Assembly: GCA_004298505.1 (NCBI GenBank)
Contig: SCRO01000065.1
Coordinates: 1-61,150 of the forward strand
Reading direction: 5' to 3'
Source: Rhodanobacter sp.
GTDB lineage: Bacteria > Pseudomonadota > Gammaproteobacteria > Xanthomonadales > Rhodanobacteraceae
Length of the DNA: 61,150 bases
Part shown: positions 1 through 14,550 of the stretch, piece by piece
Layout of the letters: the number at the start of each line of letters is the position of its first letter
How positions within the stretch are numbered: position 1 is the first letter of the stretch
Made by a program: the position numbers and the translations under genes
The notes under the pieces: generated by a model
The model's input: only the letters and a program-made list of their open reading frames with translations
What the model was told of the DNA's origin: nothing
The model's database searches: none

Positions 1-1512
1 GTGATCGCGACCGGAAAACGTGCCCAGTTCGGTTTCGATGCGCGCGCAACTCTCCGCGCCGAGCGGTTCCAGACGTACCCGCAGCAGGCCGTCGCCAGTT
101 TGCCGCTCGACCATCGCCGCGGGGTCGGACTGCAGCGCCAGCGCTTCGCCGAGCAGGGCCAGGAACAAGCGGAACGCGTGGCGGTCCAGCGTACCCAGTG
201 CAGACAAGGTGGTGGTTTTGCCGCTGGCCAGGCGCGCGCGTGCGGCCTCGACCTGGGTATGTTCATCGGCCAGTTGGCGCGCCAGCAATTCGCGTTCGTG
301 GTTGCGTTCGCGCACCCGCGGTGGTGGCCCTTTCGGCGTGGCCGAACCGTATTCGCGCAAGCGCGGATGGATTGCGATCGCCGGCGCGTCGGGCCAGTGC
401 GTGGAGGCAGGCACCTCATCATCGCCCACGCACAGGCTCAGATGCCGTGCCGGGTTGAGTGCAAACGCGGCGCGCCACAGGCGCTGCGCATCGGCCTCGT
501 CGGCGCAGTCGCTGAACCAGCGCGCGAGCAGGCGGAAATCGGCGGAACGATCGCTGCGCCCGCTGCGGCGGTCATTGAGATTGGCCACCGCGGTCATCAG
601 TTGCGGGATCGCCGCCAAGGCACGACTGCGCAGCAACTCGGCCTGGGCGACTTCGCCCTCGGCGCCGGCGAACCAGCGCGACAGACCGTGCCAGCGTTGC
701 CGCCACGCGGTCATGCGTTCTTCCAGCGCGCGGCGTTGGCCGGCATCGTCGGGTGCGGCGTCGCGCGCCTCGCGCTGGGCGGCCAGCCACAGCAATGCGT
801 CGACCTTCGGCTGCAGCAGCGCGATGCGCTCGGCAATCACCGCCGAGCGTGCCACCAGGTCGCTGATGAAGCGCTCCAGGTAGCCGATCAGGCGCTGCTT
901 CCACGCCAGCAACGCGTTCATGTCCGCTTGCTGCAAATCGATGCCGCGTGCCACGCCGGCCATGAATGCCTGTGCGTTGTCGGCCAAATCGCCCAGGCGC
1001 TGGGCCAGATCGCGCAAGACTTCGTGCACCTTGGCGGCATCGGGCGTCGGCGCGGCGGCCAGGGTGCGCAGCGCTTCCAGGCGCGTGGCGATGTCTTCCA
1101 GCGCCACGCTTTGCAATTCGGCGCGGCGGCGCAAGGCGTGGGCGAACGCGGTCAACGCGGTTTCGACCGCCTCGCCGCCCTCGGTCAGGCGATACAGAAA
1201 GCGGGCGCGATAGAAATCCTCGATGCTCGCCACCCGTGCGGTGTCGGGCTGTGAATCTACGTTGCCCCACTCCGCCAGCTGCGCCAACGCGGCCTGCACT
1301 TCGTCCAGTGTCGGCAGCGCGCCAGCAGCCCCTTCGCCAGCGGCGCCTTCCTCGCTGCGGGAAATGCGCGCCAACACCTCGTCCGGCCGCAAGTACGGCA
1401 CGAACTCTCGCTTGGCCGCGGCAAACGCGTCCATGACTGCGCGATACAGCGGCGCCTTGTCGGCACTGACATGGCGGAACAGGTTGCCTTGTGCAGAAAC
1501 GGGATCGGTCAT
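1..1512 (-). CDS. DUF2397/TIGR02677 protein, JetA-like subunit of a Wadjet-type SMC system (3' end cut by window)
   Basis: Reading leftward from an ATG at 1512, 504 codons stay open to the window edge. The N-terminal part has the family signature: LFRHV near residue 11, an LxxLAEWGN block at 77-84, then PDTARVASIEDFYRARFLYRL and GGEAVE. The last visible residues, FSGRDH, resemble the end of the family, so only a few codons should be missing. DUF2397 is the first gene of a four-gene set (DUF2397, DUF2398, a TIGR02680 SMC-like ATPase, a DUF2399 TOPRIM protein) that I recall being called Wadjet type III, which restricts small circular plasmids; this subunit would be the kleisin-like part. It follows mnmG on the same strand after about 115 bases. 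The partner genes are not visible, so completeness of the system is inference. Confidence 0.8.
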   Translation of the reverse strand, partial: MTDPVSAQGNLFRHVSADKAPLYRAVMDAFAAAKREFVPYLRPDEVLARISRSEEGAAGEGAAGALPTLDEVQAALAQLAEWGNVDSQPDTARVASIEDFYRARFLYRLTEGGEAVETALTAFAHALRRRAELQSVALEDIATRLEALRTLAAAPTPDAAKVHEVLRDLAQRLGDLADNAQAFMAGVARGIDLQQADMNALLAWKQRLIGYLERFISDLVARSAVIAERIALLQPKVDALLWLAAQREARDAAPDDAGQRRALEERMTAWRQRWHGLSRWFAGAEGEVAQAELLRSRALAAIPQLMTAVANLNDRRSGRSDRSADFRLLARWFSDCADEADAQRLWRAAFALNPARHLSLCVGDDEVPASTHWPDAPAIAIHPRLREYGSATPKGPPPRVRERNHERELLARQLADEHTQVEAARARLASGKTTTLSALGTLDRHAFRLFLALLGEALALQSDPAAMVERQTGDGLLRVRLEPLGAESCARIETELGTFSGRDH

Positions 1513-1595
1513 GCGGGATCGGATCAATGCGTGTCGGATGCCGTGCGCAGGCGGTTCGACGTATCCAGATGGGAGAGTGTAGCGTGCCGCCGCGT

Positions 1596-1614
1596 GACCG
1601 GCTGCGTCCCGGTC
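1596..1614. terminator. weak hairpin between mnmG and the JetA-like gene
   Basis: GACCGG at 1596-1601 pairs with CCGGTC at 1609-1614 across a 7-base loop. There is no T-run on either side, so at most it is a weak or Rho-assisted stop after mnmG. Readthrough from mnmG into the defence gene is possible. Confidence 0.2.
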
Positions 1615-1627
1615 ATTGCCCAGGCTG

Positions 1628-3505
1628 CTAGGCGGCGTTCCGGCGCTTCAGGTGCACCAGCAGCAACGAGATCGCGGCGGGGGTTACCCCGCTGATGCGC
1701 GCAGCCTGGCCGAGCGTGGCCGGTTGTGTGCGCTTGAGCTTGAGCAGTACCTCGGCCGACAGGCCGCGGACCCGGTCGTAATCGAAACCGTCGGGAATGG
1801 CGGTGTGCTCGTGTCGGCGCTGGCGTTCGATCTCCTCGCGCTGGCGCTCGAGATAGCCGGCGTACTTCACCTGTACCTCGACCTGCGCGGCCACGTCGTC
1901 ACGCTCGACCGGCGGGCCGAAGACATCGATGCGGGTAAGCCCAGCGTAGTCCAGCTCGGGCCGGCGCAACAGCTCGATGGCGCTGGTTTCGCGGCTGACC
2001 ACCATGCCAAGCTCGCGCTGCAATGCGTTGCCCAGGGCGTTGTTCGGCGCGGCCCACAGTGCGCCCAAGCGCTGCGTTTCGCGTTCTACGGCGTCGCGCT
2101 TGGCGCGCAGCGCGTCGTAACGGGCTTGCGCTACCACGCCGAGTTCGAAACCCTTGTCGGTCAGGCGCAGGTCGGCATTGTCCTCGCGCAGATGCAGCCG
2201 ATACTCGGCGCGCGAGGTGAACATGCGGTACGGCTCGATCGTGCCGTTGCTGGTGAGGTCGTCGATCAGCACGCCGATGTAGGCTTCACCGCGGCGCGGG
2301 TACCACGGTGCCTTGCCCTGCACGGCGCGGGCGGCGTTGAGCCCGGCGAGCAGGCCCTGCGCGGCGGCCTCCTCGTAACCGGTGGTGCCATTGATCTGGC
2401 CGGCGAAGTAGAGACCGGTGATGGCCTTGGTCTCCAGCCAGGGGTTGAGCCCGCGTGGATCGAAATAGTCGTATTCGATAGCGTAGCCGGGGCGGGTGAT
2501 GTGGGCGCGCTCGAAGCCGGGAATCGACTGCACCAGCGCAAGCTGCACATCGTAGGGCAGCGAGGTGGAGATGCCGTTGGGATAGATTTCGAACGTGTCC
2601 AGTCCCTCCGGCTCGATGAAGATCTGGTGCGAGTTCTTCTCGGCGAAGCGCACTACCTTGTCCTCGATCGAGGGGCAATAGCGCGGTCCGACGCCCTCGA
2701 TCTGGCCGGTGTACAACGGCGAGCGATGCAGCGCACCACGGATGATCTCGTGGGTGCGCTCGCTGGTGTGGGTGATCCAGCAGCTGACCTGGCGCGGATG
2801 CTCGTCGCGCGAGCCGAGGTAGGAGAACACCGGCGCCGGGGAGTCGCCTGGTTGCTCCTGCAGTCCGCTGCAATCGATGCTGCGCAGGTCGATCCGCGGC
2901 GGCGTGCCGGTCTTCAAGCGGTCGGCGGCCACCGGCAGCTCGCGCAGCCTTTGCGCCAGCGTGATGGCCGGCGGGTCGCCCGCCCGACCTCCGGCGTATT
3001 GCGCCGCGCCAATATGAATCTTGCCGGCGAGGAAGGTGCCGGCAGTGAGCACCACCGTACGTGCGCCGAACGAAAGCCCCATCTGGGTCATCACGCCGGT
3101 GACGCGGCCACCTTCGATGATCAGGTCGTCTACCGCTTGCTGGAACAGCTCCAGATTCGGCTGGGTTTCCACGAGGTGGCGGATCGCTGCCTTGTACAAG
3201 GCGCGGTCGGCCTGGCAGCGAGTGGCGCGGACGGCCGGGCCCTTGGAGGCGTTGAGCGTGCGCCACTGGATGCCGGCGCGGTCGGCGGCGTGCGCCATGG
3301 CGCCACCCAGCGCATCGATCTCCTTGACCAGATGCCCCTTGCCGATGCCGCCGATGGCCGGGTTGCAGCTCATCTGGCCGATCGTCTCGATGTTGTGGCT
3401 GAGCAGCAAGGTGCGTGCACCCGCGCGTGCTGCAGCGAGCGCGGCCTCGGTGCCGGCGTGGCCGCCGCCGATCACGATGACGTCGTAGTGGGTCGGGTGA
3501 CGCAT
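1628..3505 (-). CDS. mnmG: tRNA uridine-5-carboxymethylaminomethyl modification enzyme MnmG (GidA)
   Basis: This 625-residue cytoplasmic flavoprotein works with MnmE to install cmnm5U at the wobble position of several tRNAs. The FAD-binding GGGHAG motif is at residues 13-18 directly after the DVIVI strand, and the [15 protein letters not shown] block typical of MnmG follows. Length matches the family (about 630). The ATG at 3505 is chosen because it puts the Rossmann strand at the usual distance; an in-frame start 30 bases upstream would only add a non-conserved tail. The gene stands alone, and its 3' end borders the accessory JetA-like gene, which suggests an insertion point for foreign DNA. 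Confidence 0.97.
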
Positions 3506-3702
3506 GTTGTGCCCTAAGCGCGCAAAAAGTGACAAAACGGGTCGCTATGGTAATGCCAGCACGCTTTCGCCGAAGGGTACGCGGCGCTGGCACAGATCCT
3601 GCTTCATCCGACTGGCACTTTCATGGGCAGACGCTGCGCCAGGAATGCGCGCCGAGGTCGAGCGGACAGGGGTTCGATCGTGCACCGTGAGAGGAAGCAA
3701 GG

Positions 3703-3722
3703 CGGCACCCTTCGGGGTGCCG
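3703..3722 (+). terminator. TTCG-tetraloop hairpin upstream of mnmG
   Basis: CGGCACCC and GGGTGCCG form a perfect 8-bp stem closed by TTCG, with A-rich sequence before it and TCGTCTTT after it on the + strand. It has the shape of an intrinsic terminator for + strand transcription, but no + strand gene precedes it; it may instead be part of the mnmG leader. Confidence 0.45.
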
Positions 3723-3772
3723 TCGTCTTTGCGCACTGCGTCTGTATCCGCCTTCCCGGTCGCGCCGGCTTC

Positions 3773-3886
3773 AAAAACACGAAGCCCCGCGGCTTGGCGG
3801 GCGCGGGGCTTCGTGCTGATAGATCTGGCGCCAGGCGGTCTCAGGAACAGGGGGAATCCAGGATGACCGTATTGCCTGGCGCCAGA
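3773..3886 (-). ncRNA. candidate small structured RNA with its own intrinsic terminator
   Basis: Read on the minus strand, a perfect 13-bp stem (TCTGGCGCCAGGC at 3824-3836 with its complement at 3874-3886, 37-base loop) is followed by a perfect 14-bp stem (3802-3815 with 3778-3791, 10-base loop) and then TTTTT (3777-3773), the layout of an RNA ending at a Rho-independent terminator. The frames through it carry stops or no protein-like run. It lies about 270 bases upstream of mnmG, so it could be an independent sRNA or a terminated leader of mnmG. I could not match it to 6S, 4.5S or a known riboswitch. Transcription is inferred from structure only. Confidence 0.5.
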
Positions 3887-4046
3887 AAGCGATAGTGCGG
3901 GCGTCTGCCTCACGTATTGCAGCGGGACTTGAAATTGATTTTCACCGCCAATGCGTGAACAAGGTGTGACTGCAAGGGGATTTTGTGCCGGGCCACGGCA
4001 ACAGCTGACGCGGGACGTCACTGTTGCGAAGGGATCGGCAATCGAC

Positions 4047-4062
4047 TGTGACAGGTGTCACA
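4047..4062. promoter_or_regulatory. perfect CRP/Clp-type operator
   Basis: TGTGA-CAGGTG-TCACA matches the CRP consensus TGTGA-N6-TCACA exactly; in Xanthomonadales the CRP-like regulator is Clp. Its centre is 65 bases upstream of the ATG at 4120, which would allow class II activation with a start near 4096. Confidence 0.65.
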
Positions 4063-4119
4063 CATTGGCATGGGTGATGCATCTACCCAATCACCCAGCC
4101 ACTCATCGAGAAATTCGCC

Positions 4120-4305
4120 ATGGACATGAGCTTCGACTTCCAGCCCGTCTACCCGCATCACGACCTGCTGGTCGAGCTTGGCGAGGTGGAGATGGCGCTG
4201 GATCATCTGCGCGACTACGCCGACGACGACCACAACTCGCAGCAGCCTGAGCTGGAGACGCGCATGCAGAGCCTGCTCGAAGCACTCGATCACCTGGCCG
4301 TGTGA
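4120..4305 (+). CDS. small acidic protein of unknown function (61 residues)
   Basis: A 61-residue, His/Asp/Glu-rich protein beginning MDMSFDFQPVYPHHDL, with a predicted helical second half (LETRMQSLLEALDHL). There is no signal peptide, membrane segment or recognised domain. A perfect CRP/Clp box lies just upstream and an inverted repeat lies just downstream, which together support a real monocistronic gene. The ribosome-binding site is weak (GAGAAATT). Its function is unknown. Confidence 0.6.
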   Translation: MDMSFDFQPVYPHHDLLVELGEVEMALDHLRDYADDDHNSQQPELETRMQSLLEALDHLAV

Positions 4306-4306
4306 A

Positions 4307-4380
4307 TGAAACGTCCTGCACGTGCAGGCGCGGGAAGCTTGGCTGTTGTTGACCGCGCCCACCTTGAGTGCCACGTTTCA
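4307..4380. terminator. inverted repeats between convergent genes
   Basis: TGAAACGT at 4307-4314 pairs with ACGTTTCA at 4373-4380, and a 14-base palindrome CCTGCACGTGCAGG occupies 4315-4328. The structure separates the small gene from the convergent pepN stop and could stop transcription from both sides. No long T-run is present. Confidence 0.4.
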
Positions 4381-7029
4381 GTGAGTCAGCACGGTGCCGA
4401 TGATTTCGCTCAGGTTGCGCGACAAGCCGGCGTGTCCGGCCAGCTCCATGATCGCTGCCTGCGCCAGCGCACACCGCCCCGGTTCCAGCCGTTGCCAGCC
4501 GTTGAACGCGGTGGCCAGCCGCGCCGCCACCTGTGGGTTCAGCGAGTCCAGCGTCACCAGGCGCTCGGCCAGGTAGCGGTAGCCGGCACCGTCCGGGCGA
4601 TGGAACCCGCTCGGGTTTCCACGCACGAATGCCCCCAGCAGCGACTGCACCCGGTTCGGGTTGTGCAAGGTGAAGGCAGCATCCTTCTCCAGTCGCATCA
4701 CGCGCGGCAGCGCCACCTTGCCGGGGTTCTGCGCCTGCACCGCAAACCACTTGTCCAGTGCCAGCGCATTGCTTGCGTAACGCTGGCGATAGTCCAGCAG
4801 CACCTGGTCGCCCGCGGCGGCTTGCCCGCGCACCAGCACGGCCAGCGCCGCGAGCCGGTCGGTCATCCCGAGCGCGCTACGGTACTGCGTCGCGGCCAGT
4901 TGGTGCGCCTGCTCGTTGTCGCACAACTGCAGCAACTCCAGTACCCGATGCTTGAGCCGGCGGCGTGCCTGGCTTGGTGCGTCGAGCGCGATCGTGGCCT
5001 GCGCGGCCAACGCTCGATAGCGTTGTTCCAGCGCGTCGGCGCCGAGCCGTTCGGCCAGCACACGCTGCAGCGCCTGGCGCAGTTCGTGGATGCGCGCGGG
5101 GTCGACGTCGCTCTCGCGTTCGGCCAGTTCGATCTCGCCCGGCGGGGTGAGCAGGTCGGCCAGCAGCGCATCCTCGAGGTCGCCGGCATTGAACAGCCGT
5201 GCGAGCGCGTCGCACCACGCTTGCCGGGCATCGCCGGCGGCGCCGTCACGCAGGTTCTCGTAGGCGCGTGTGGCCAGTAGTTGGCCCGCTTCCCAGCGAT
5301 TGAAGCCGTCCGGATCGTGGGCCAGCAGCAGCGCCATCTCGGCCGGCGTGTAGTCGCACTCCAGGATCACCGGGGCGGAGAACCCGCGCAGCAGCGACGG
5401 CACCGGCGCACGATCGATGTCGCCGAAGACCAGGCTCTGCCCGGCCTGCGCCAGCACCACCACGCGTTCGCGCGTATCGCTGGCCGGTGTGCCGTCCAGC
5501 CGCAGCGGCAGCAGGTCGCCGTGGCGTGAAAACAGCGCAAGCTTGACCGGGATCGGCAGCGGCGCTGGCGCGAGCGTCCCGGCGCTGCCGGGTGTTTGCT
5601 GGCTCAGTGTCAGCGTGTATTCGCGCTGCGCCGCGTCGTAATGGCCGTGCGCGCGCAGTCGCGGCGTGCCAGGGTGGGCATACCAGGCGAGGTAGGGCAT
5701 CAGGTCGGTGTCGGTGGCCTCGCCCAGCGCGGTGAGGAAATCCTCCAGCGTGGCGGCGCGACCGTCGTTGCGTTCGAAGTAGCGATCCATGCCGCGGCGA
5801 AAGCCGTCCGCGCCGAGCCGCCCGGCCAGCATGCGCACCAGCTCGGCGCCCTTCTCGTACACCGTGGCGGTGTAGAAATTGTTGATCTCGCGGTACTGCG
5901 CCGGGCGCACCGGATGCGCCAGCGCACCGGCATCCTCGGGGAACTGCGCACGGCGCAGCAGGGATACATCCTCGATGCGCTTGAGCGAAGCGGAGTTCAT
6001 GTCGGCCGAGAAGCACTGCTCGCGGAACACCGTGAGGCCTTCCTTCAAGCTGAGCTGGAACCAGTCGCGGCAGGTCACCCGGTTGCCGCTCCAGTTGTGG
6101 AAATACTCGTGTGCCACCACGGCCTCGATATGGCGGTATTCCTCGTCCGTGGTCGAGTCCGGGTCGGCCAGCAGGTACTTCGCGTTGAAGATGTTGAGGC
6201 CCTTGTTCTCCATCGCGCCCATGTTGAAATCGTGGGTGGCGACCACGTGGAACACGTCAAGATCGTAGTTGCGCCCGTAGACCTGCTCGTCCCAGCGCAT
6301 CGCGCGCTCCAGTGCGTCCAGCGCGTAGTGGCAGCGGTCGATCGCATCCGCCTCGGCCCAGATGTTGAGCTTCACCGCACGCCCGTCTGCGGTGACGTAG
6401 TCGCGCTCGATCCGCTCAAGACGCCCGGCGACCACGGCGAACAGGTAACTCGGCTTCGGGTGCGGGTCCACGAAGCGGGCCCAGTGCCGACCGCCTTCCA
6501 GCGCGCCGGCGCCGTCCGGATTGCCACCCGCGAGCAGCACCGGGAAGCGTTCGCGATCCGCGCGCAGCGTCACCGTGTAGCGCGAAAGCACATCGGGCCG
6601 GTCGGGGAAGAACGTGATATGGCGAAAGCCCTCGGCCTCGCACTGGGTGAGCAGGAACCCGGTCTCGTGCGGGCCGGAAAGATACAGGCCCTCCAGTGCC
6701 GTGTTGGCCGCGGGCCGCACCCGCACCCGCGTTTCCAGCACGCTGCCGTCGCGCACGCCATCCACCTCCAGCACCGTACCGTCGTAACGGTAGGCGCTGG
6801 CGGACAGCTGCTCGCCATCGAGCCTGATCGACAGCAGTTGCAGGTTCTCGCCGTCCAGTTGCAGCGGGGCTTGTTGCGCGGGATCGCGGCGCAGCTGCAG
6901 GCGCGCGGAAATTTCGCTGGCGTCGATGCCGAGGTCGACATCCATTTCGATGGTTTCGACGCTCCAGGCGGGTGCGCGATAGTCGCGCAGCCGGATCAGC
7001 GCGGGGCTTTGTTCCGAAACTGCATGCAT
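4378..7029 (-). CDS. pepN: aminopeptidase N (M1 metallopeptidase)
   Basis: This 883-residue cytosolic zinc aminopeptidase removes N-terminal residues from peptides in the last steps of protein turnover. The exopeptidase motif GAMEN is at residues 271-275 and the zinc motif HEYFH at 307-311, followed by the distal Glu in the NRVTCRDWFQLSLKEGLT block. Length and motif spacing match E. coli PepN (870 residues). It is divergent from the aldose epimerase relic with a 66-base intergenic promoter region. Confidence 0.97.
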   Translation of the reverse strand: MHAVSEQSPALIRLRDYRAPAWSVETIEMDVDLGIDASEISARLQLRRDPAQQAPLQLDGENLQLLSIRLDGEQLSASAYRYDGTVLEVDGVRDGSVLETRVRVRPAANTALEGLYLSGPHETGFLLTQCEAEGFRHITFFPDRPDVLSRYTVTLRADRERFPVLLAGGNPDGAGALEGGRHWARFVDPHPKPSYLFAVVAGRLERIERDYVTADGRAVKLNIWAEADAIDRCHYALDALERAMRWDEQVYGRNYDLDVFHVVATHDFNMGAMENKGLNIFNAKYLLADPDSTTDEEYRHIEAVVAHEYFHNWSGNRVTCRDWFQLSLKEGLTVFREQCFSADMNSASLKRIEDVSLLRRAQFPEDAGALAHPVRPAQYREINNFYTATVYEKGAELVRMLAGRLGADGFRRGMDRYFERNDGRAATLEDFLTALGEATDTDLMPYLAWYAHPGTPRLRAHGHYDAAQREYTLTLSQQTPGSAGTLAPAPLPIPVKLALFSRHGDLLPLRLDGTPASDTRERVVVLAQAGQSLVFGDIDRAPVPSLLRGFSAPVILECDYTPAEMALLLAHDPDGFNRWEAGQLLATRAYENLRDGAAGDARQAWCDALARLFNAGDLEDALLADLLTPPGEIELAERESDVDPARIHELRQALQRVLAERLGADALEQRYRALAAQATIALDAPSQARRRLKHRVLELLQLCDNEQAHQLAATQYRSALGMTDRLAALAVLVRGQAAAGDQVLLDYRQRYASNALALDKWFAVQAQNPGKVALPRVMRLEKDAAFTLHNPNRVQSLLGAFVRGNPSGFHRPDGAGYRYLAERLVTLDSLNPQVAARLATAFNGWQRLEPGRCALAQAAIMELAGHAGLSRNLSEIIGTVLTH

Positions 7030-9880: not shown

Positions 9881-10537
9881 ATGAGCCAGAGCGCCGTACC
9901 GATCCGTTGTCATTGGGCCCGCGAAAGCGATGCACTGATGTGTGCCTACCACGACACCGAGTGGGGCGTGCCCCTGCGCGACGATCGTGGGCTGTTCGAG
10001 TTCCTTTGCCTCGAAGGCGTCCAGGCCGGCTTGTCCTGGCGCACCGTGCTGGCCAAGCGCGCGCATTACCGCAAGGTATTTCATGACTTCGAGATTGCCC
10101 GCGTGGCCGCCATGGCTGATCGCGAGCTCGATGAATTGCTGCTCGATCCGGGCATCATCCGCAACCGGCTCAAGGTGTCGTCGAGCCGCGACAATGCGAT
10201 TGCCGCGCTCGGGGTGATCGAGGAATTTGGAAGTCTGGGCATCTATTTGTGGTCGTTCGTCGATGGCAAGACGGTGCTCAATCGCTGGCGTGACCAGGCG
10301 CAAGTGCCGGCCAGCACCGAGCTGTCCGACCGCATGAGCAAGGCGCTCAAGCGGCGCGGCTTCCGCTTCGTCGGCAGCACGATCTGCTATTCGCTGATGC
10401 AGGCGACCGGCATGATCAATGACCATCTGGTCGGTTGCTTTCGGCATCGGGCGTGCGCCGATGCCGTGTTCGACCTCACTTGTTTCCGCCTTGGAGCGCC
10501 GCAATGGCCCGGTCGAGGGCGGCGCGCGCGGTCTTGA
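9881..10537 (+). CDS. tag: DNA-3-methyladenine glycosylase I
   Basis: This 218-residue cytosolic base-excision repair enzyme removes 3-methyladenine from alkylated DNA. Visible hallmarks are IRCHWA (zinc Cys), YHDTEWGVP (zinc His), LEGVQAGLSWRTVLAKR, and the C-terminal DHLVGCFRH that supplies the remaining zinc ligands. The ATG at 9881 gives the usual N-terminus. The last 60 bases overlap the 3' end of the convergent sedolisin gene, making the C-terminal tail (GRGRRARS) longer than usual. Confidence 0.94.
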   Translation: MSQSAVPIRCHWARESDALMCAYHDTEWGVPLRDDRGLFEFLCLEGVQAGLSWRTVLAKRAHYRKVFHDFEIARVAAMADRELDELLLDPGIIRNRLKVSSSRDNAIAALGVIEEFGSLGIYLWSFVDGKTVLNRWRDQAQVPASTELSDRMSKALKRRGFRFVGSTICYSLMQATGMINDHLVGCFRHRACADAVFDLTCFRLGAPQWPGRGRRARS

Positions 10538-12020
10538 GTTCATCCAGCACCGATGAACCACCGGGTGCGGGAGGCGTTGGCGTCGGCGTGGGTGCGGAGA
10601 ACGCGGCAGCGGTATGGGTGTCGGGTACGCCCAGGCCCGTGGCGGGATCCCAGCCCGGTCCGGCCTGCCAGGCGCCGTTGTTGCCCTGCGTGATGTCGCG
10701 TGTATGTGGCGCCGCCTTGCCGGCGGCCACGCCTGCGTACAGGCCGGTTTGTGCCAACCCGATGCGCGTGCCGGACAGCTGCACGATGCGCGCCACCAGC
10801 CCGGCCCACAGCGGCGCCACCGCGCTGGTGCCGCCGATCACCATTTGCTGTCCATCGACCAGCACCTGGTAGCCGGTTTGCGGATCGGCTACGGCGGCGA
10901 TGTCCGGCACGCCACGCCCGCTGCTGCCGCCTGCCGTCCGCTTCGGCACGCCCACGTTTTGTTGCCACGCCGGCAGGGCAAACACGTCACTGACACCGCC
11001 GCCGGTGGCACCGCCCTGGCCGCCATCGTTCCATACGGTTTCCGAGCTCACCTGCCCGCTCGCGGTGAGCTTGAGCGAGGTTCCGCCACAGCCGAGCACG
11101 TGCGGACTCGACGCCGGGAAATCAGCGTGCACGGCCGTGCCATCACTGTCGCTGCTGCCGCTGTCGCCTGCTGCGGCAGTGACGGTCACCCCCATGGCGA
11201 CCGCGTCCGCGAAGGCCGCGTCCATGGCGGTACGCGCCGGCGCCGTCCACTTGTCTTCACTCTCGCCCCAGCTGATGCTCAGTGCGACCGGCGCCGGGCT
11301 GGCGTGCGCTGCGGCACTGACGGCGTCAAGAAAGCCCGCGTCGGTGTTGGGCGCGAAATAGACGAGGAAACTGGCCTTGGGCGCAATCGCCCCGGCTACC
11401 TCGATGTCCAGCAACACCTCGCCGTCCGCGCCCGTCGGATCCTGGCCCGGCTGGTTCTTGGCGCCATCGACGCTGATCGCCTTCACGCTCGGCGCCTTCA
11501 GGCCGAGTCCCTTGAAGTAATTGCGCAGGTCGCTTTGCGCGAAACCGCCACCCAGTTCGATGATGGCGATGATCTGCCCCGACCCATCGGCAGCCGGCAT
11601 GCCGTAAACGTCGGCAAGTTGCAGCGGCGTATAGCTCACGTTGCCGGCACGTGGCTGCGCCACGACGGCGCGTGGCCGCGCCTGCGGTGCGGCACTGCCG
11701 AGCACCGCGGTCACGATGCCGGCCAGATCGTTCGGAATATGCGCAACCCACGCGCGGATCGTGGCGGCCGGACCCTCGACCTGAACCCGGCGCGAGGCGG
11801 GATGCACTGCGACCACCTTCAATCCGGCCGACGTGGCAATCTTGCGGACGGCCCGGATGTCCACGGGATCAGCGCCGAAACGCGCTGCGAGTTGCGCCGA
11901 CGTGAGCGCGCTGGCAGCGGGCGACAGCTGCGTCAACGGCGCCCGTCGGCGCACCACGATGGTGGCCGCTGCTGCGGGCCGCCCTTTCGACGTCGTGCCG
12001 TGTGGTTTCGAAGTGGCCAT
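10476..12020 (-). CDS. S53 sedolisin (kumamolisin-like) serine-carboxyl peptidase
   Basis: 514 residues. An N-terminal prodomain (about 30-125) precedes the peptidase domain with the catalytic Glu201 and Asp205 (GEVLLDIEV), the oxyanion Asp286 (AAAGDSGSSD) and the nucleophile Ser399 in GGTSAVAP. A Ca-site-like DITQGNN...GWDPATGLG follows. Sedolisins are secreted, acid-active, self-processing endopeptidases. No Sec signal peptide is visible; the N-terminus is basic and Ala-rich, as in some kumamolisins. A Pro/Thr linker and a short helical tail end the protein. Confidence 0.88.
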   Translation of the reverse strand: MATSKPHGTTSKGRPAAAATIVVRRRAPLTQLSPAASALTSAQLAARFGADPVDIRAVRKIATSAGLKVVAVHPASRRVQVEGPAATIRAWVAHIPNDLAGIVTAVLGSAAPQARPRAVVAQPRAGNVSYTPLQLADVYGMPAADGSGQIIAIIELGGGFAQSDLRNYFKGLGLKAPSVKAISVDGAKNQPGQDPTGADGEVLLDIEVAGAIAPKASFLVYFAPNTDAGFLDAVSAAAHASPAPVALSISWGESEDKWTAPARTAMDAAFADAVAMGVTVTAAAGDSGSSDSDGTAVHADFPASSPHVLGCGGTSLKLTASGQVSSETVWNDGGQGGATGGGVSDVFALPAWQQNVGVPKRTAGGSSGRGVPDIAAVADPQTGYQVLVDGQQMVIGGTSAVAPLWAGLVARIVQLSGTRIGLAQTGLYAGVAAGKAAPHTRDITQGNNGAWQAGPGWDPATGLGVPDTHTAAAFSAPTPTPTPPAPGGSSVLDELKTARAALDRAIAALQGGNK

Positions 12021-12640
12021 GACCGGATGATGAGCCTCGCTCGGGCCGCGCGACAGCTACAGCGCTGTCTCATGCCTGGCGAGTTTGAGCGCGGTCACGT
12101 GACTCCAACGTCAAATTAAGTCTGAAGAGGGATAGCGGGTCGTCGATGATCAGACGATGATCCTGGGGTCAAATGGCCCACGCGGATTGCTCGCGACACC
12201 CACTCCCGTGCAGGCGGGTTCGGCGGGATTCGGTGTTGGCGGCGGCGCGGCGCTACTGTAGTCGCGTAGGGTGCGGCCAAGCGTATCGAGCACGTCCAGC
12301 ATCACCGGCGCCGTCACCGATTTCGGCAAGGCATGGGCGCAGACGCATGGGCGATTAGCCTGCGCTGGGCAAGGTTCAAGTATTCAGTGGAGGGCGCGTT
12401 GGTATGCGGCGCTGGTTGGTCGAAAATCACGGGTGCCGATCCGGGAATGCTGTGTTCGGTGCTTCTTCGCCGGTCGCGGAACCGGAATACGGCAACTTGC
12501 GGGCATTGCACGGGGCTATGCCCCTTCCGTCGCTGCCTGATCAGACTGCCGAAACCGGCAGTTCAGCGGTTTCACACGGTGCATCGTTGCGCTCACGTAT
12601 AATGAAGGCTTATTCATGCTGCGAGCGTTTACGGGTCGCC
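12021..12640. other. 620-base stretch without a convincing gene
   Basis: No frame gives a recognisable complete protein. A minus-strand stretch ending near 12163 (including VTAPVMLDVLDTLGRTLRDY) looks protein-like and may be a relic, but I could not identify it. The palindrome GTCACGTGAC lies near 12097. The 3' part is more AT-rich and presumably carries the promoter for the KaiC-like operon. Confidence 0.4.
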
Positions 12641-13066
12641 ATGCAAGCTGATGCATCCGGGATCCAACCGATGTTTGCGCGTCTCGTCGCCGGGAGCGAC
12701 GACGCTGGGCAGATCGCGGACGTAGCCGTCTCGATCTGGCGCGACGTGGCCGCGGCGCTGGCACCGATCATCGGCCAATCCGGTGTGACCGCGCTGCTCA
12801 AGCGCAGCATTCATCTCACTCGCGCCGCGCATCCGTGCCTGTCAGCCGCCAACGATGGCGCGTTGCCCACCAACGAGCTGGCGATGTTGCAGGCGGTGCT
12901 GTCGCAACAGGACCGCATCGAGGCGATCGCGACGAATGCCGCGTTGCTGCAGCACTTCCATGAAGTGCTGATTACCCTGATTGGCGCGTCGCTCACCGAG
13001 CGGCTGCTGCGTCCCGTATGGGACATCACCTCACGCGGCGACGCCGTACCGGAAGCCATCACATGA
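12641..13066 (+). CDS. hypothetical protein coupled to the KaiC-like gene
   Basis: A 141-residue, mostly helical, soluble protein of unknown function. Notable stretches are IADVAVSIWRDVAAALAPII, GVTALLKRSIHLTRAAHP and a C-terminal LLQHFHEVLITLIGASLTERLL. No enzymatic motif is visible. Its TGA overlaps the ATG of the KaiC-like gene (ATGA), so the two are translationally coupled and probably act together. Start uncertain: an in-frame ATG at 12602 would add 13 residues; neither has a good ribosome site. Confidence 0.7.
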   Translation: MQADASGIQPMFARLVAGSDDAGQIADVAVSIWRDVAAALAPIIGQSGVTALLKRSIHLTRAAHPCLSAANDGALPTNELAMLQAVLSQQDRIEAIATNAALLQHFHEVLITLIGASLTERLLRPVWDITSRGDAVPEAIT

Positions 13067-14550
13067 CCATTGCCAAAGCCACCATCAACCGGCTGAGCAC
13101 GGGCGTGCCCGGATTGGACGAGGTGCTTGGCGGCGGCCTGCCCGAATTTTCGTTCAACGTCATCGCCGGTCCACCCGGCAGCGGCAAGACCACGCTGGCG
13201 CACCAGATGATGTTTGCGCTGGCCACGCCGGCGCGCCCGGCGCTGTACTTCACCGTGCTGGGCGAGCCACCGCTGAAGATGCTGCGTTACCAGCAGCAGT
13301 TCGACTTTTTCGACAGCGAGAAGGTCAATCACACGATTCACTTCATCAACCTCGCCGAGGAGATGGCTACGGGTGACTTGACCCGGGTGCTGGCGCGGAT
13401 CGTGGCCGAGGTCGAGGCGCGCGGGCCTGGCCTGGTGTTTGTCGATTCGTTCCGCTCGGTGATACTGGCCGGGCTGGCTGAGGGCAGCCAGTTCATCAGC
13501 TTGCAGCAGTTTGTCCAACAATTGGGCATGCTGATGACCAGCTGGCAGGCCACTACCTTCCTGATCGGCGAGTATTTCAGTGACACGGACCCCAGCCCGG
13601 TGTTTACCGTGGCCGATGGCTTGATCTGGCTGCGCCAGGACATGCAGCGCGATTCGATGGTACGCAAGCTCAACATCGACAAGATGCGTGGTCAGGCCAC
13701 GATGCCAGGTTTGCATACCTTCCGGATCGGCACGGCCGGTCTGCGCGTGTTCGCTCCATCGCTGGCGATGAGCGTGTCCGCGCCTCCCACAGACTCGCCG
13801 ATCAAGGAGCGAATGTCGATAGGGGTGGCTGCACTGGATGCCATGATGGGTGGCGGCCTGCCGCGCGGTTACTCGCTGCTGGTGGCCGGACCGTCCGGGT
13901 CGGGTAAAAGTATCCTGGCGGCGGCGTTTCTGATCGAGGGTGCCAGCCGCGGCGAGACCAGCGTGATTGCCGCGTTCGAGCAGCGTGCCACCCAATCGCG
14001 CGGCAAGCAGATCGCCGAACTGATCGAATCCGGTCAGATTGGTGTGGTCGACACGCGCGAGCCCGGGCTGTCGGTCGACGAGGTCTCCGTGCTGCTGATG
14101 GCCGAGGTGGATCGGCTCAAGGCCAGCCGCGTGGTGATCGATTCGCTGTCGGGTTTTGAATTGTCGCTGGCGCCCAGCTTCCGCGCGGACTTCCGTGAGG
14201 CGATGGCGCGGATGGTGTCGGCCCTGGGCAGCACCGGCGTGAGCGTGCTGATGACCTCGGAGCTGGAGGATCGCTACACCGAACTGCGCTTCAGCCCCTA
14301 TGGCACGGCGTTTCTCACCGACGCGATCATCGTGCAGCGCTACATCGAGGTGAAAAGCCGCCTGCTGCGCGTGATGGCGGTACTGAAGATCCGGGCCAGC
14401 GTTCACTCGAGCGAATTACGCCTGTTCCACATCGATGACAACGGCATCCAGATCGACGGGATGCTGAGCAACTACGAGGGCCTGCTGGGCGGCAGGCCGA
14501 CCCGCAGCCAGCCTGGACTGCCGCAACGGTTGGGCCCCGACGATGGATGA
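13063..14550 (+). CDS. double-domain KaiC-like RecA-fold ATPase
   Basis: 495 residues with two tandem KaiC/RadA-type domains. Each opens with a substrate loop (STGVPGLDEVLGGGLP near 12, SIGVAALDAMMGGGLPRG near 250) followed by a Walker A (GPPGSGKTT at 36-44; GPSGSGKS near 275). Walker B-like strands are GLVFVDS and RVVIDS. Outside cyanobacteria such proteins are linked to stress and signalling rather than clock output. No KaiA or KaiB is present. It lies between a small coupled protein and a GGDEF/histidine kinase, which suggests a dedicated signalling unit. Whether it autophosphorylates cannot be read from the sequence. Confidence 0.88.
   Translation: MTIAKATINRLSTGVPGLDEVLGGGLPEFSFNVIAGPPGSGKTTLAHQMMFALATPARPALYFTVLGEPPLKMLRYQQQFDFFDSEKVNHTIHFINLAEEMATGDLTRVLARIVAEVEARGPGLVFVDSFRSVILAGLAEGSQFISLQQFVQQLGMLMTSWQATTFLIGEYFSDTDPSPVFTVADGLIWLRQDMQRDSMVRKLNIDKMRGQATMPGLHTFRIGTAGLRVFAPSLAMSVSAPPTDSPIKERMSIGVAALDAMMGGGLPRGYSLLVAGPSGSGKSILAAAFLIEGASRGETSVIAAFEQRATQSRGKQIAELIESGQIGVVDTREPGLSVDEVSVLLMAEVDRLKASRVVIDSLSGFELSLAPSFRADFREAMARMVSALGSTGVSVLMTSELEDRYTELRFSPYGTAFLTDAIIVQRYIEVKSRLLRVMAVLKIRASVHSSELRLFHIDDNGIQIDGMLSNYEGLLGGRPTRSQPGLPQRLGPDDG

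Follow-up and report, generated by a model that had tools for sequence, protein, structure and literature searches.

The locus analysed here raises the question of whether a DUF2397 gene that runs off the edge of a Rhodanobacter contig is a solitary fragment or the first gene of a complete anti-plasmid system inserted behind a housekeeping gene. The window, by which we mean the whole stretch of DNA that was analysed (61,150 bases), is an entire contig (C131) of a draft genome that comprises 139 contigs and 3.78 Mb, and it is for this reason that the gene, jetA, runs off base 1. The features at the left end of the window are as follows.

1..120, no strand: overlap, identical to the last 120 bases (11927-12046) of another contig of the same genome (G000:C41, 12,046 bases long)
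1..1512, minus strand: jetA (JetA2, DUF2397/TIGR02677), ATG at 1512, first 504 of 520 codons, identified by profile matches
1513..1627, minus strand: 115-bp spacer that separates the stop of mnmG from the start of jetA and forms the left junction of the proposed insertion
3508..1628, minus strand: mnmG (gidA), tRNA uridine-5-carboxymethylaminomethyl(34) synthesis enzyme (TIGR00136, 885 bits)

The jetA frame is open on the minus strand from its ATG (1512-1510) to base 1, where it leaves the window, and its stop is found on C41 at positions 11878-11876. The protein scores 467.9 bits against PF09660 (DUF2397; cut-off 28.5), covering positions 1-482 of the 483 in the profile, 550.1 bits against TIGR02677 (cut-off 165.85) and 618.1 bits against the PADLOC model JetA2, while the DUF2397 search gave no match in any of 14 control genomes. 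The family match is therefore far beyond chance. All three profiles bear out the earlier note, which had read an outward-pointing DUF2397/TIGR02677 frame at the left edge. The same note had described the gene as complete to within a few codons; the open frame from the ATG agrees with this description, but the missing end is longer than was supposed, consisting of 16 codons plus the stop, all of which are present on C41. By analogy with studied Wadjets, the jetA product would be the kleisin subunit.

The contig with mnmG and jetA was joined to C41 by contig overlap and not by reads. A search of the genome with the 120-base overlap sequence found matches at these two contig ends only, and on C41 the reading frame of jetA goes on without a shift until its stop, which overlaps the start of the next gene. 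The partners that had been expected to the left of base 1 from family knowledge, namely DUF2398, a TIGR02680 SMC-like ATPase and DUF2399, are indeed present in this order on C41.

C41 11879..10614, minus strand: jetB (DUF2398), 421 codons (TIGR02678 371 bits, PADLOC JetB2 462 bits)
C41 10553..6381, minus strand: jetC, SMC ATPase of 1390 aa (TIGR02680 1357 bits, PADLOC JetC2 1372 bits)
C41 6378..5095, minus strand: jetD (DUF3323/DUF2399; TIGR02679 377 bits, PADLOC JetD2 425 bits)

Across the overlap, the four genes are contiguous on one strand in the order jetA-jetB-jetC-jetD with all frames open. The jetA stop and the jetB start share the bases ATGA, and jetD begins 2 bp past the jetC stop. 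Matches to TIGR02677, TIGR02678, TIGR02680 and TIGR02679 are each above the profile's own cut-off, the profile matches cover nearly the whole length of the proteins, and the Pfam families PF09660, PF09661, PF13558, PF11796 and PF09664 are matched in the four of them. We take these four TIGR profiles to define type II Wadjet, which agrees with the finding that the best PADLOC models for the four genes are JetA2, JetB2, JetC2 and JetD2. JetC keeps the motifs GNNGTGKS, LSGPASSGE and LVLLDEAF, which correspond to Walker A, signature and Walker B, respectively, and JetD keeps CEN and HGDFDW, presumably the TOPRIM-type glutamate and DxD. In an alignment of 15 operons (our own and 14 relatives taken from 21 compared loci), the lysine/serine of the first motif, LSGPASSGE, DE, CEN and D-D-W are invariant columns. 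Loci that do not hold all four genes (L070, L077, L081, L085 and L086) were excluded from this alignment, as were L080, with match coordinates and identities equal to those found for L079, and L084, which judging by its coordinates duplicates the G228 record. One of the excluded loci, L086 from Pseudorhodoferax sp. Leaf267, carries at 10001-10951 an N-terminal JetA match (residues 1-177) that passes directly into a C-terminal JetD match (residues 275-427). Neither jetB nor jetC is matched in the 20.5 kb of this locus, which looks like a decayed operon.

Our analysis indicates that the locus is very probably a complete type II Wadjet, jetABCD, present as one block between mnmG and a gene for an RDD/GYF-domain protein, with the assembly break falling inside jetA; the assignment to type II rests on the profile searches. 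The window contig taken alone would be annotated with a lone truncated DUF2397 gene, while the genome encodes a full anti-plasmid system.

JetABC has been described as a shape-sensing SMC motor and JetD as a TOPRIM nuclease, and the sections of the same paper drawn on here report that Wadjet cleavage depends on ATP and on the JetC ATPase, takes place regardless of sequence and leaves linear DNA uncut, and that in vivo circles larger than about 100 kb are not affected (PMC10586767). By analogy with studied Wadjets, JetA (kleisin), JetB (KITE) and JetC (SMC ATPase) would assemble into a dimeric motor for the extrusion of DNA loops, irrespective of sequence. Where the DNA is a small closed circle, the two units of the motor would run into each other, upon which the TOPRIM nuclease JetD would be activated and the plasmid cut, while the chromosome and linear DNA would escape because extrusion is not completed on them. 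Much of the cited mechanistic work on Wadjet concerns type I. For the type II system nvJET, the sections surveyed report cleavage of naked circular DNA, a hinge without the channel known from type I, and a failure to bypass obstacles (PMC12647877). The hinge region of JetC from our operon aligns to the solved JetC 9qe0 in a search of PDB sequences (4e-24, a comparison of sequence only), and therefore these limits of nvJET, a channel-less hinge and no bypass of obstacles, may apply to JetC here too. The expected effect of the system, again by analogy, is that circular plasmids of small and medium size are taken up or maintained less well. In practice, genetic tools based on plasmids may not work in this strain.

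We infer the activity of the operon from its sequence. The 115-bp spacer upstream of jetA is presumed to be its leader or promoter region. A simple scan of window positions 1400-1800 found no consensus sigma-70 site, promoter or terminator, and Rfam gave no match at gathering score over the window. The outcome of the scan and the existence of apparently decayed relatives such as L086 would speak for an operon that no longer defends, being silent or subtly inactivated, or that has a role in organising the chromosome, as MksBEF systems without JetD do. However, the four open frames, the near-full-length profile matches and the preserved ATPase and nuclease motifs make such a reading unlikely, and JetD is present here, unlike in the MksBEF condition as given in the sections surveyed (PMC10586767).

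Pairs of genes resembling toxin-antitoxin modules are seen at several related loci. In L071 (a Methylococcaceae MAG), an addiction-module-like pair is located between jetA and jetB on the opposite strand (11601-12218) and consists of a dnstrm_HI1420-type antidote (E 4e-25) and a Gp49-like protein below cut-off (E 3e-4). In L072 (an Oxalobacteraceae MAG), a pair of NTase_sub_bind and Polbeta nucleotidyltransferase genes, which we take to be HepT/MntA-like, is situated between jetB and jetC (12765-13555). Such a pair inside the operon is thus found in 2 of the 15 loci from relatives in which the four jet genes are all present, a count in which L084 is taken together with L088 and for which the gaps opened were the two wide ones only. 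In G011, the other carrier in the genus, the genes immediately before jetA are an AbiEi/AbiEii type IV toxin-antitoxin pair (L066:8788-10519). No toxin-antitoxin-like pair is present between mnmG and RDD in our genome. It is conceivable, at long odds, that the operon belongs to a divergent type II Wadjet lineage which, with L071, L072 and G011, forms part of a wider module where addiction pairs guard the anti-plasmid machine, and that type II might, with its channel-less hinge and no obstacle bypass, restrict a different set of plasmids from type I. On the sequence evidence, we regard the operon as an ordinary, apparently intact type II Wadjet of a known kind.

The position of this type II Wadjet can be compared with the same site in other members of the genus. 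Past jetD, C41 carries the gene for the RDD/GYF_2 protein and then Tex. Among 45 genomes of the genus, mnmG is present in all and the RDD gene in 44, and in 43 of the 44 genomes other than our own the two genes share a contig and a strand. They are separated, as measured from match end to match end and not between gene ends, by 23-117 bp in 42 of these 44 relatives and by 1025 bp in G044, G033 not being measurable. In our genome the DNA that follows the mnmG stop runs for 8,459 bp until jetD ends, and the stretch between mnmG and RDD consists of jetABCD with short spacers. The extra DNA of about 1 kb in G044 holds a frame of 170 codons without Pfam match, and this genome is devoid of DUF2397. 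Spacers of 29 of the 44 relatives contain TGGCATCATG upstream of the RDD start in 27 cases and TGGCATGATG in one, neither being found in G044. The former sequence, TGGCATCATG, is also present between jetD and the RDD start in our genome, which places jetABCD between the mnmG stop and this element. The insertion point cannot be placed to the base because the spacer varies too much between the relatives. The proposal of a defence insertion at the 3' end of mnmG thus finds support in the comparison, RDD following directly after mnmG in 42 of 44 relatives and jetABCD lying between them here, and the locus offers a clean comparison of occupied and empty sites at one chromosomal position within a genus.

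Footprints of mobility were searched for at the same site. No tRNA gene was found on C41 or in window positions 1-6000, no integrase, recombinase or other mobility gene is present between mnmG and RDD, and the longest word common to both junction spacers has 7 bases. The direct-repeat families listed for C41 are weak, with copies about 70-82% alike in GC-rich sequence, and leave no footprint. GC content in 1-kb windows is 65.7-72.5% in the jet genes of C41 and 62.9-68.9% in the first 5 kb of that contig, which gives no deviation that could serve as a sign of mobility. These results give no support to a mobile element or genomic island, as neither an integrase or recombinase between mnmG and RDD nor a tRNA target or direct repeat at the junctions was found. 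A recurrent defence slot at mnmG-RDD was likewise rejected for the genus as sampled, as extra DNA is found in only 1 of 43 measurable relatives (G044). No report of a defence hot spot at mnmG was found in the portions of the literature surveyed; a study on Stenotrophomonas places type I Wadjet at other sites, and mnmG is not mentioned in the sections consulted (PMC11680222). Upstream of mnmG, at window positions 3760-3890, a GC-rich hairpin-like stretch and a block containing CTGGCGCCAG are visible by eye, without Rfam match, and a similar stretch is seen by eye in G044 (L089, about 4640-4780).

The absence of a mobility gene between mnmG and RDD and the host-like GC content would also be consistent with an operon that is ancestral to the genus at the mnmG-RDD site and was lost in most relatives, with no insertion at all. 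However, DUF2397 is found in only 2 of the 45 genomes of the genus and in 4 of the 233 of the family, our own being counted in both. The other carrier in the genus, G011, has its operon on a different contig and at a different locus, and its own mnmG-RDD site is empty (60 bp). Its four proteins are 74% identical to those of G205, a member of another genus of the family, with which they group in the tree; our copy is 52% identical to that of G011 and 51-59% identical to the 13 others compared. Starred branches of the tree separate our copy from that of G011, and a clade of the two was rejected (AU p 9e-85), with the qualification that this pair was chosen for the clade test after the tree was seen and that three of the 15 aligned sequences are unusual in their letter composition. 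Our own branch is long (0.57) and its exact placement is weakly supported (80/75). Taken together, an ancestral operon appears very improbable. Because the copy of the other carrier sits at another place and does not group in a clade with ours, our analysis points to separate gains of Wadjet by our genome and G011, and this is a likely case of such gains by congeners. Close relatives of JetA were also searched for on plasmids, where all of the 18 plasmid records matched are below 60% identity, the best being 45.7% in Cupriavidus taiwanensis, and therefore no recent plasmid source was found. Finally, a mis-assembly in which the contigs that carry mnmG and jetBCD do not adjoin each other and the head of jetA comes from another operon copy, as might be suspected from the lack of a single contig covering the join and from a contamination estimate of 3.5%, is scarcely credible in view of the exact overlap confined to the two ends, the frame that runs in register into the jetB start, the single genomic match each to DUF2397, DUF2398 and DUF2399 (E up to 0.001; the latter two both on C41), and the presence beyond jetD of the very RDD gene that follows mnmG in relatives.

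The insertion of a complete type II Wadjet at the mnmG-RDD site can finally be set against known systems. Type I Wadjet (JetABCD-I, MksBEFG/EptABCD) has the same architecture of kleisin, KITE, SMC ATPase and TOPRIM nuclease. However, matches of our operon to its PADLOC models are marginal (JetC1 at E 9.5e-05 or weaker, JetD1 at E 9e-04), and none was found for JetA or JetB at E up to 0.001. Type I was therefore rejected, since JetC and JetD score hundreds of bits higher against the type II models and JetA and JetB are without type I match at this threshold. JetABCD-II of the same-family genomes G011, G205 and G228, where no MnmG or RDD match is found in the roughly 20 kb covered around each operon, is in each case a complete jetABCD with the same gene order as here and is 52-53% identical to our copy over the four proteins.

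Among solved structures, the chains 9qe0/9qe1 (JetA/JetC) are matched by our JetA (E 7e-25) and JetC (3e-76), from which the operon here is distant in sequence. Neither JetB nor JetD matches the sequences of solved structures at E up to 1, and for JetD this holds against PDB sequences both as a single sequence and as a 15-row profile. Our reading of 9qe0 as type II comes from the match of its JetA to the DUF2397 protein described here. With respect to type II Wadjets such as nvJET of N. vireti (PMC12647877), the operon here differs by its location at the mnmG-RDD junction, a site that is not mentioned in the portions of the literature surveyed. It shares with type II Wadjets the same four families in the order A-B-C-D, and its JetC, hinge region included, aligns to the solved JetC of 9qe0.
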